Made by a program: the position numbers and the translations under genes. Under the pieces are notes generated by a model. It searched no databases. It was not told where the DNA came from and saw nothing but the letters and a program-made list of their open reading frames with translations. Source: Halanaerobiaceae bacterium (GTDB lineage Bacteria; Bacillota; Halanaerobiia; Halanaerobiales; Halarsenatibacteraceae). Taken from it: a DNA stretch of 34,139 nucleotides. The stretch spans positions 1 through 34,139 of the forward strand of contig SLSL01000169.1 in NCBI GenBank assembly GCA_007130465.1, in the 5' to 3' direction. This document shows positions 16,929-32,566 of the stretch, piece by piece (the stretch's first letter is position 1; each line of letters begins with the position of its first letter).

Positions 16929-16980
16929 AAGAGAGATACCGGCAGGTAACTGTCAGGTAACCAGCAGGTATCTCTCTTTA
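16929..16980. terminator. Bidirectional terminator between convergent mutS2 and PBP gene
   Basis: Inverted repeat AAGAGAGATACC (16929-16940) / GGTATCTCTCTT (16967-16978), between convergent genes. Confidence 0.75.
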
Positions 16981-29389: not shown

Positions 29390-30078
29390 TGGAACCTACT
29401 AAAAATTGTTTAAAAGACTTATCTGTATTTTCTTTATTAGATGGAGATGAAATCCAATCTATCTGCCAGAATGGTTATCTTAAAGAATATCGTAGAGGAG
29501 AAATAATATTTTTTGAAAATGATAGTGAAAAAAAACTTTACTTACTTGTAGATGGTCAGGTTAAATTATCAATGTTATCAAGTGAAGGTCGTGAAAAGGT
29601 AATGACGATTTTGCAGGCCGGTGATATATTTGGTGAAATTTCATTATTTGATCATGATCCTCACCCTTTGACTGCTGAAGTTCTTGAAAAGGCAAGACTT
29701 ATGATTTTAGATTGGAATGATCTAGAAGAAATAATTATGGAACAGCCCAGACTTGCCTTAAAAATTATTGAGGCTTTATCGAAAAAAACTAGATTATTAA
29801 CAAGTCAGGTTAGAGATTTAGTTTTTCATGATGCTAAAGGGCGCCTGGCTAATCTCTTAATAAGATTTGCTAAAGATTTTGGTCAGAAAGTTGATGAAGG
29901 GACAATGATTGAGATAATCCTGACTCATCAAGAGATAGCTAATTTATTAGGTGTTTCTAGGGTTACAGTGACCAAAACATTAAATAAATTAATCGATGAA
30001 GGAATTATTAAAATTAAAGAAAGAAGAATTTATATACTGGATAATGAGGGATTAAATGAACTGGTTAAGGATATTTAA
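29389..30078 (+). CDS. Crp/Fnr family transcriptional regulator
   Basis: cNMP-binding fold (GEIIFFENDSEKKLYLLVDGQVKL, GDIFGEISLFD) and HTH LTHQEIANLLGVSRVTVTKTLNKL. Confidence 0.92.
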   Translation: MEPTKNCLKDLSVFSLLDGDEIQSICQNGYLKEYRRGEIIFFENDSEKKLYLLVDGQVKLSMLSSEGREKVMTILQAGDIFGEISLFDHDPHPLTAEVLEKARLMILDWNDLEEIIMEQPRLALKIIEALSKKTRLLTSQVRDLVFHDAKGRLANLLIRFAKDFGQKVDEGTMIEIILTHQEIANLLGVSRVTVTKTLNKLIDEGIIKIKERRIYILDNEGLNELVKDI

Positions 30079-30926
30079 TGATGGATTATAGTATTGATTT
30101 TTTTCTTGGTTTAATTGGTAGTGATGTTGATAAAAGTTTATCTCCATATATTCATAATACGGTTTACAGAAAAAGAGAGCAGAAGGCTTTTTATAAAGCT
30201 TTTTCGTTAAGAGAAGAAGAGGTTTTAGAAGCAGTTAAGGCTCTAGCTATTTTTTCATTTAAAGGGATTAATATTACCAATCCATATAAGGAGCTGGCTT
30301 TTAATAATGTTGATCTTTTATCGAAATCTGCTGAAGAAATTGGGGCAATTAATACGATAAAGGTTTTAGAAGATGGTATTTTAAAGGGTTATAATACTGA
30401 CTTTTTAGCTGTAAAGGAGATTTTAAAAGAAAGTTATGATAATCAAGGATTTCCTTCTGCTTTAATATTAGGTGCCGGCGGGGCTGCAAGAGCTGTCTTA
30501 TATGCTTTACTTGATTTAGAATTTGAAGAGCTGACTATTGCTAATAGAACTAAATCTAAGGCAGTAAAACTGGTCTCTGAATTTAGTGATTATAAGCAGG
30601 ATAGATCTGGCATTGAAATTATTGAATGGGATGAGAATAATATTGGTAGAGCAGTAATTGATTCTGAAATAATAATAGATACTACTGGTTTAAGCTGGAG
30701 TGATAAATCATTCCCAGGTTATAATAATATTAGCTCGGATAATTTTATTTTTGATTTAAGCTATCCAGACTTTAATTCCAAATTAAAGATTAAGGCTGCT
30801 GAAGTTAATGCAGAGTATATTGATGGCAAAAAAATGTTGTTATACCAGGCAAGGGAAGCTGATAAGATTTGGTTTCCTGAATTTAATGATGATGATAGGA
30901 AAAAATTATTTGAGTTAAATCTTTAA
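30078..30926 (+). CDS. aroE: Shikimate dehydrogenase
   Basis: SLSPYIHNTVYRK, FKGINITNPYKELAF, GAINTIK, GYNTDF, LGAGGAARAVLYAL, ANRTKSKA, D-L-S-Y. 1-nt overlap (TAATG) with the crp/fnr gene. Confidence 0.92.
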   Translation: MMDYSIDFFLGLIGSDVDKSLSPYIHNTVYRKREQKAFYKAFSLREEEVLEAVKALAIFSFKGINITNPYKELAFNNVDLLSKSAEEIGAINTIKVLEDGILKGYNTDFLAVKEILKESYDNQGFPSALILGAGGAARAVLYALLDLEFEELTIANRTKSKAVKLVSEFSDYKQDRSGIEIIEWDENNIGRAVIDSEIIIDTTGLSWSDKSFPGYNNISSDNFIFDLSYPDFNSKLKIKAAEVNAEYIDGKKMLLYQAREADKIWFPEFNDDDRKKLFELNL

Positions 30927-31047
30927 TTTTTATTTGCTTGCACTAGACCGGTATATTTTAATAATTTTTTTGATATTATATTGATAAAAGTTGAAATTTT
31001 AAAATAAATCAACTTTTAGAAACTTTGATTAAATATGAGGCTGATCT

Positions 31048-31152
31048 GGCATAAATATGGAGTTAACTGGATTTTTCTCGGATATAAGCCGGAGGATTCC
31101 CGGAGGATTCCCGGAGGATTCCCGCAGGATTGCCGGAGGATTCCCGGAGGAG
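31048..31152 (+). repeat. Array A: 11-bp tandem repeat, consensus CCGGAGGATTC
   Basis: Five near-identical full units plus a partial: 31089, 31100, 31111, 31122 (CCGCAGGATTG), 31133, 31144 (CCGGAGGAG). A degenerate GG-containing lead-in at ~10-11 bp spacing starts near 31048. Confidence 0.95.
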
Positions 31153-31202
31153 ATCTGTAGATGGTCTGGGGCGGAATTTGATTTATATTTATAAAAACTT
31201 GT

Positions 31203-31301
31203 CTGGACCGAGATTAAACCGTATTTAAACCGAATTTACAGCGAAGTTGAACCGAAGCTAGACCGAAGGATGCCCAAATTTAGGCCTAGTTTGAATCGAA
31301 T
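31203..31301 (+). repeat. Array B: degenerate 11-bp repeat, approx. TTRAACCGAAG
   Basis: Nine consecutive 11-mers: CTGGACCGAGA TTAAACCGTAT TTAAACCGAAT TTACAGCGAAG TTGAACCGAAG CTAGACCGAAG GATGCCCAAAT TTAGGCCTAGT TTGAATCGAAT. Confidence 0.85.
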
Positions 31302-31343
31302 CAGTTTAAGAATAAAATCAAATAATATTAATAGAAATTAGTT

Positions 31344-31381
31344 ATCTCAACTGGAATTATCTTCTGGTTGAGATTTTTTTA
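31344..31381 (+). terminator. Orphan intrinsic terminator downstream of the 11-bp arrays
   Basis: ATCTCAAC-(15 nt)-GTTGAGAT followed by TTTTTTT; no annotated gene in the ~420 bp upstream. Confidence 0.65.
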
Positions 31382-31489
31382 TTATAAATAAATAAAAAAT
31401 TTGGAAATCATGCAGGAGTTTTACATCCGATGTAGAAATAGAAAACTATTCCATTAAAATAAAAATTTACTTGATTGGAGTTGACAGTT

Positions 31490-32566
31490 ATGTTTGGAGG
31501 AAGTCAGGTAATAAATCAGTTGAAAAATCTGATTGAGGAAGCTAAAAAAAATGATGTTAGTGATATCCATCTGGAGTTGATTGGTATAAAGGGGCGGATA
31601 AGGTATAGGATTGACGGTCTTTTGCAGACAAAATTAGAGTATAGCAAAGAGATGTTAGAATCAATTATTTCTAGAATAAAATATCTGGCTAATCTGGATA
31701 TTACTTTAAAGAATAAGATTCAGGAGGGATGTATTATTGGTGGTGAGCTTGATAGTGATGATATTAGAGTTTCAATAATACCGACAGTTTTAGGTGAAAA
31801 AGCAGTTCTTCGAATTAGAAATAATAAAAATTATCTTGATTTAAATAAGATTGGGTTTAATCACTATAATAAAAAGTTGTATATGGATTTACTTGAAAAT
31901 AATAATGGCATTATTCTGTTTACTGGGCCAACTGGTAGTGGTAAGAGCACAACTCTGCTGGCAACTATTTCTGAATTAAGTAGTCCTGATAAAAATATTA
32001 TTACTTTAGAGGATCCTGTAGAAATATTGATCTCTGGAATTAATCAGATATATGTTAATACCAATGCAGGCCATAATTTTGCAGAATATTTAAGGGCTAT
32101 ATTAAGACAGGACCCTGATATTATTATGGTTGGAGAGATTAGGGATTATGAAACTGCCAGTATGACAACCAGGGCAGCTCTTACTGGCCATTTAGTTTTA
32201 AGTACTGTCCACGCTGATAGTTCGATTGGAGCAATAACTAGATTATTGGAGATGGGGATTCCCTCATATTTAGTTGCATCAACTATAAAAGGTGTTATAT
32301 CTCAAAGGTTAATTAGAAAATTTTGTTTGAGATGTGGAGGAGAAGGCTGTTTAGATTGTTATGGAACTGGCTTTAAAGGCAGAAAAGCTATCCATGAGAT
32401 TATTACAATTAATGATCTTATTAAAGATGGGATTATACGAGGTTTAAGTGAAAAGGAATTATTGGATATTGCAGATGAATCTGGCTTTAAGACTTTGAGA
32501 AATAATTTTGAAGAAGAAATTGCTAATAGTCTTACTAGTAAAGCAGAAATGGCCAGGGTATTATAA
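31490..32566 (+). CDS. GspE/PilB/ComGA-family secretion ATPase (short form)
   Basis: Walker A FTGPTGSGKSTTLLATI, LEDPVEI, RQDPDIIMVGEIRDYETA, STVHADSS, CxxC Zn motif CLRCGGEGCLDCYGTGFKGRKAIHE. ATG 31490 after TTGGAG. Confidence 0.94.
   Translation: MFGGSQVINQLKNLIEEAKKNDVSDIHLELIGIKGRIRYRIDGLLQTKLEYSKEMLESIISRIKYLANLDITLKNKIQEGCIIGGELDSDDIRVSIIPTVLGEKAVLRIRNNKNYLDLNKIGFNHYNKKLYMDLLENNNGIILFTGPTGSGKSTTLLATISELSSPDKNIITLEDPVEILISGINQIYVNTNAGHNFAEYLRAILRQDPDIIMVGEIRDYETASMTTRAALTGHLVLSTVHADSSIGAITRLLEMGIPSYLVASTIKGVISQRLIRKFCLRCGGEGCLDCYGTGFKGRKAIHEIITINDLIKDGIIRGLSEKELLDIADESGFKTLRNNFEEEIANSLTSKAEMARVL

Follow-up and report, generated by a model that had tools for sequence, protein, structure and literature searches.

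A genus-restricted family of intergenic elements with two 11-nt repeat arrays, probably non-coding RNA genes, in the Halarsenatibacteraceae

We analyzed a window of 34,139 nucleotides, contig SLSL01000169.1 of a Halanaerobiaceae bacterium (GenBank assembly GCA_007130465.1), in which aroE and a gene for a PilB/GspE-type pilus ATPase, both on the plus strand, flank a gap with two arrays of short direct repeats (Table 1). Both arrays had been described in an initial annotation, and both are real. TRF reported array A at 31089-31151 (period 11, 5.7 copies, 92% matches, consensus CCGGAGGATTC), and its 11-nt autocorrelation was 48/52, against 13.5 ± 3.7 in dinucleotide shuffles (z 9.3, 0/5000). Array B was reported at 31214-31267 (4.9 copies, 76% matches) and also exceeded its shuffled control, the comparison proposed in the annotation, scoring 55/91 over 31200-31301 against 22.9 ± 4.2 (z 7.7; 0/5000, also with any period from 5 to 25 allowed to compete). 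The nine units that had been counted in array B could be phased, and read, in order, CCGAGATTAAA, CCGTATTTAAA, CCGAATTTACA, GCGAAGTTGAA, CCGAAGCTAGA, CCGAAGGATGC, CCAAATTTAGG, CCTAGTTTGAA, and TCGAATCAGTT. The two arrays have a CCGRAG core in common at strict 11-nt spacing, and their first CCG positions are 119 bp apart, both as annotated.

Two further features of the window were recorded. A Sigma-H-like promoter (GCAGGAGTTTT...GTAGAAATAG) lies at 31400-31480, upstream of the pilus operon, and the orthologous gaps of genomes G001 (the sister species), G002, and G005 have similar sequence. TRF found another 11-bp period at 16938-16970 (ACCGGCAGGTA x3); it falls within a terminator-like palindrome, flanked by convergent mutS2-like and penicillin-binding-protein genes, and is not a family member.

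Table 1. Features of the aroE-pilus gap and its flanking genes in the window
Feature	Position	Strand	Basis
aroE (shikimate dehydrogenase), upstream gene	30078..30926	+	Shikimate_dh_N, E 1e-21
TTGCACTA box, ~6-7 nt upstream of the -35 region	30938..30945	+	conserved in complete copies
Predicted sigma70-like promoter (TATATT, 16 nt, TATTAT)	30952..30979	+	alignment of 16 upstream regions
Predicted 5' leader	30986..31088	+	start site inferred from the -10
Array A, six 11-nt units (CCGGAGGATTC x4 plus variants)	31089..31154	+	TRF, autocorrelation, unit table
Linker, 53 nt, out of register in the window copy	31155..31207	+	
Array B, nine degenerate 11-nt units (CCGAATTTAAA / CCGAAGCTAGA type)	31208..31306	+	TRF, autocorrelation, unit table
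A/T-rich tail, 37 nt, conserved TAATTTAATAG-like motif	31307..31343	+	last-unit-to-stem distance
Intrinsic terminator, 13-bp stem ATCTCAACTGGAA/TTCTGGTTGAGAT, 5-nt loop, U-tract	31344..31380	+	pattern scan
PilB/GspE-type pilus ATPase, downstream gene	31475..32566	+	T2SSE, E 4e-101

The extent first given to the repeats, 31048-31301, proved too small, as the element runs from about 30938 to 31380. Complete copies have the order promoter, leader, array A, linker, array B, tail, and intrinsic terminator. The family promoter consensus is TTGCACTA-N-TATTTAC-N-TGATATAAT, and the TTGCACTA box and promoter were found upstream of the arrays at 16/31 array loci. In the window copy the -35 is weak, and a generic promoter scan did not list this promoter. 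At five loci (L016, L017, L029, L040, and L042) the promoter lies directly 3' of the upstream gene's own terminator. In the window copy the leader has degenerate in-phase units immediately 5' of array A (CTGGATTTTTC, TCGGATATAAG). In complete copies generally, the tail contains TTAATTTAATAG. Most loci have 36-39 nt between the last B unit and the terminator stem; four others have 47-50 or 58 nt, longer by one or two 11-nt units. Over 21 loci, pairing in the terminator stem reaches 96%, and 7 of its 11 pairs show two-sided changes (0/500 shuffles); this covariation is lost when the partner is shifted by 1-3 columns.

We also searched both genomes of the genus with the promoter pattern alone. 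This yielded six further intergenic loci (L160-L163, L167, and L168), all of which continue into array A, array B, and a terminator; the remaining new matches that were read are coding or unrelated sequence. At the level of sequence, the search is thus an independent confirmation of the unit. About a third of positions have array A alone and no recognizable promoter; they lie between two genes or ahead of a convergent gene (e.g., L022/L032, L024/L037, and L013/L043).

The two window arrays are one copy of a dispersed family with about 25 copies per genome in the genus. Across the two available genomes of the genus, the array pair, or one array of the pair, occupies 25 intergenic positions, a census that rests on pattern and model searches. 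The window's own genome (2.19 Mb, 296 contigs) has 73 matches to the two-unit pattern CCGRAGN5CCGRAG, on 18 contigs, versus 1 for the reversed control. Contigs of this assembly end in or near arrays at L013, L018, L020, L021, and L181; the repeats are therefore a probable cause of assembly breaks, and the copy count may be too low. Type A units follow C[CT]GGAG[CG]A[ATG][TA]C (196 units) and type B units [CG]CG[AT]A[GT][CT]TA[GA]A (153 units). Variants of the B unit recur in the same order at different loci (CCGTAATTAAA, CCGAATTTAAA, ..., CCGAAGCCAGA, CCGAAGAATGA, GCGTATTTATA), which marks the B copies as paralogs of one element rather than independent expansions. Seven candidate loci (L030, L164-L166, and L169-L171) were rejected as false positives, being coding or unrelated sequence.

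No homologs were found outside the genus, among 61 genomes searched by pattern and 38 genomes of the order searched by two patterns and a covariance model. The three-unit pattern occurred, among 60 relatives, only in the other genome of the same genus, and among the 38 genomes of the order only in the two genomes of the genus. The covariance model, which covers the B-end, tail, and terminator, scored up to 113 bits in the genus (most copies 46-113), and its best matches outside, at or below 38 bits, were ordinary terminators or unrelated sequence; those that were read had no 11-nt periodicity. Orthologous gaps in three sister genera held no arrays (L182-L193). Elsewhere in GTDB, CCGRAG 11-mers come mostly from Bacteroidota and high-GC Actinomycetota and are mixed coding and non-coding minisatellites with no fixed orientation. 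In Chryseobacterium and relatives, CCGAAG units at 11-nt spacing run outward from a terminator-like inverted repeat, CTTCGG...TTCGGAAAAAA-GATG-TTTTTTCCGAAG...CCGAAG (L050, L058, L080, L086, L103, L118, L130, and L146). Core and spacing are the same, but the element is a separate one.

Within the genus, the copies keep their places and their strand. The arrays in the aroE-pilB gap are present in the sister species (L161), where the annotation had suggested looking, and the same holds for every position initially detected in the window's genome: 18/18 orthologous gaps of that species carry arrays. Seven positions were first found in the sister species: two are also occupied in the window's genome (L180 and L181), one is without arrays there (L179), and four were unscored, the gene being missing or at a contig end. 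The L179 gap (G000:C279) is the window genome's ortholog of the L034 gap and has neither array; its reverse strand appears transposase-like. Arrays run with the genes at all 19 distinct co-directional positions and are never found between divergent genes (p 2e-6); five positions are convergent and carry no information on strand.

Shared positions and fixed orientation, together with conserved promoters and terminators on either side of the arrays, speak against a minisatellite family, neutral or selfish, that slippage or a mobile element had spread. Such a family would fit the changes in unit number, which differs by whole units between orthologs, and the visible local homogenization, since the window copy has four identical GATTC units and its ortholog L161 has none. 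However, there are no near-identical copies and, apart from the absence at L179, no strain-specific insertions, and the 11-nt register is kept through linkers whose sequence is saturated. We regard this origin as highly improbable. The decaying, strain-specific minisatellite considered in the annotation is not supported, as all 18 positions are common to the sister species, and a recent mobile element was rejected because the positions are shared and the copies diverged.

Sequence comparison between orthologs placed the promoter, both arrays, and the terminator above shuffled background in most pairs, with leader and linker at background. Despite this drift, arrays A and B have the same 11-nt phase at 11 of the 18 loci with separate arrays (exact cores only; p 6e-8), or at 7/11 with each position counted once (p 1e-5). 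The annotation had the arrays out of phase, which describes the window copy but does not extend to the family; L161, the ortholog of the window copy, has A and B in register. Within arrays, 140/140 exact A cores and 131/132 exact B cores hold to one phase per locus, and at two loci with the order B-A the arrays abut in phase. Linkers, leaders, and tails have a weaker 11-nt rhythm in composition, to which uncalled degenerate units beside the arrays add. From promoter to array there is no common phase across loci.

A strict 11-bp spacing, a register maintained across saturated linkers, and positions always downstream of genes would all suit a DNA-binding protein that polymerizes along one helix face, for example to organize or insulate the ends of transcription units. 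A DNA platform would have no need, however, of a dedicated promoter and a covarying RNA terminator around the arrays, nor of a strand fixed relative to transcription, and at 10.5 bp per turn twenty 11-bp units would drift by about one full turn. The phased DNA platform put forward in the annotation is thus improbable in our estimate, as these features favor RNA instead.

Promoter, terminator, and fixed strand point to RNA rather than DNA. We conclude that the window gap probably holds one member of a multi-copy family of intergenic non-coding RNA genes that is specific to the genus and was inherited vertically. The family, its anatomy, orientation, register, terminator, and vertical inheritance are backed by sequence; transcription is what we infer from them. 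The transcription unit is well supported in this way and the transcript is predicted, as two hallmarks of small-RNA genes are present, a conserved upstream promoter (weak in the window copy) and an intrinsic terminator under selection. Each complete copy would be its own transcription unit, with a predicted RNA of ~300-400 nt. Coding was rejected for both arrays: consensus B units (e.g., CCGAAGCTAGA and CCGAATTTAAA) give a stop in each frame per 33 nt, and array A has an open frame but its start codons are not shared. The annotation recognized no described element, and Rfam agrees, with no match in the window region even at E <= 1 and no family match at gathering score in the element at 18 loci. 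Searches of openly licensed papers likewise turned up no description of the element. The sole Rfam match in the 18 loci is a THF riboswitch (RF01831, 67 bits) elsewhere on its contig (L021:1149-1244).

Array B folds less than its shuffles in 22/24 cases (mean z +1.27, n = 24), which is expected of direct repeats with a non-self-pairing unit and so describes the RNA without being proof of selection. Array A is near neutral (mean z -0.57, n = 27); it is moderately foldable, through CCGG/CCGG mini-hairpins, and not clearly single-stranded. A stable fold of the arrays was rejected, since they fold no better than shuffles. Of the structured RNA suggested in the annotation, the transcription unit with its covarying terminator stands, but folded arrays do not, array B folding worse than shuffles.

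The copies with array A only may be 3'-UTR modules of mRNAs. Extended to the whole family, this would mean a cis effect of the arrays on the upstream mRNA, through its stability, through a block to exonucleases, or through Rho loading at evenly spaced C-rich units. The arrays are always sense and downstream of a gene, the A-only copies lack a promoter of their own, each A unit has UCCC and each B unit CC, and rho is present in both genomes of the genus. Complete copies, however, have a shared promoter and come after the upstream gene's own terminator at the five loci named above. Rho would leave the conserved GRAG part of the core unexplained, and it was rejected as the cause of the limit to the genus, as rho was found in 10/10 genomes tested, including every tested relative without arrays. 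A cis-acting role for the family as a whole therefore seems to us unlikely.

For the RNA genes, the best overall explanation, which we favor with some reserve, is an RNA family whose arrays are repeated sites for an RNA-binding protein. On this view the two arrays would be rows of single-stranded sites that keep to one shared 11-nt register and offer multivalent binding, as a platform or sponge, to a protein whose subunits step along the RNA every 11 nt. Perhaps a single protein would serve both arrays, because CCGRAG is common to A and B units. This multivalent mechanism is tentative; protein binding, and what is regulated, we infer from the layout of the arrays. As a lead only, the diverged Hfq of the genus may be a clue to the binding protein. 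It is a single copy of 68 bits (L196:945-1181 and L197; G000:C204 and G001:C2), whereas sister genera g2 and g3 have stronger copies (102-104 bits; miaA-linked in g2) and further paralogs, and g4 has none.

A more specific proposal is that the arrays are a sponge for CsrA or a similar protein, with the GGA that recurs every 11 nt in array A titrating CsrA as CsrB or RsmZ would. Every intact A unit has this GGA, and csrA is present in the sister species (G001; PF02599, E 8e-26). PF02599 was not found, however, in the window's own genome (G000, 95% complete, so that absence is not absolute), where the arrays are kept; array B is without GGA, and in array A the GGA is paired in CCGG/CCGG or GGA/UCC mini-hairpins rather than displayed in a conserved loop. 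A CsrA sponge is therefore very unlikely. Neither csrA nor rho explains the limit to the genus, since rho is in all ten genomes and csrA was not found in one carrier.

The family still resembles CsrB/CsrC and RsmX-Y-Z: it would consist of intergenic small RNAs of a few hundred nucleotides that end in a terminator and repeat a short motif, here including GGA, many times. It is proposed to work alike, by titrating a protein. It differs in its strict 11-nt direct-repeat register, its two different arrays, its ~25 copies per genome, and its lack of loop-displayed GGA. LhrC and the streptococcal csRNAs, like the family, come as several paralogous sRNA genes that have a promoter element in common and end in intrinsic terminators, but they are short base-pairing RNAs with a few C/U-rich sites; we know of no multi-copy sRNA family of this type with long 11-nt arrays. 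REP/BIME elements are also multi-copy, intergenic, and on the 3' side of transcription units, but they are palindromic hairpins in either orientation, whereas the family has non-palindromic direct repeats in one orientation. By layout, the closest published analogue is the TAACTGA heptamer direct repeats in intergenic regions of Beggiatoaceae, Cyanobacteria, and Bacteroidetes, for which an RNA-binding protein was proposed as the reader (PMC4679880). Like these and the cyanobacterial STRR, the family consists of dispersed short tandem direct repeats, intergenic, mostly in one orientation, and changing by whole units. In those repeats, however, the unit is 7 bp, the usual place is just 5' of a start codon, and the distribution spans phyla; the units described here are 11 nt long, lie downstream of genes in an element with a promoter and terminator of its own, and are restricted to a single genus.

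A bolder reading, which we consider rather doubtful, is a new class of regulatory RNA. About 25 paralogs per genome, each keeping a single 11-nt register all the way from leader to tail, would nucleate an ordered protein filament on single-stranded RNA, one subunit per 11 nt; the two unit types would be two binding modes, and the common promoter would switch the whole set.

If these are small RNAs, the genus devotes about 25 loci to a single RNA family, one that is absent from RNA libraries. The copies form an unusually clean natural series, in unit number, type, and register, for finding the 11-nt reader. A register that survives linkers drifted to background is a hard physical clue that the ligand would measure 11 nt along the molecule, and the shared promoter box means that the whole set can be tested as a regulon.
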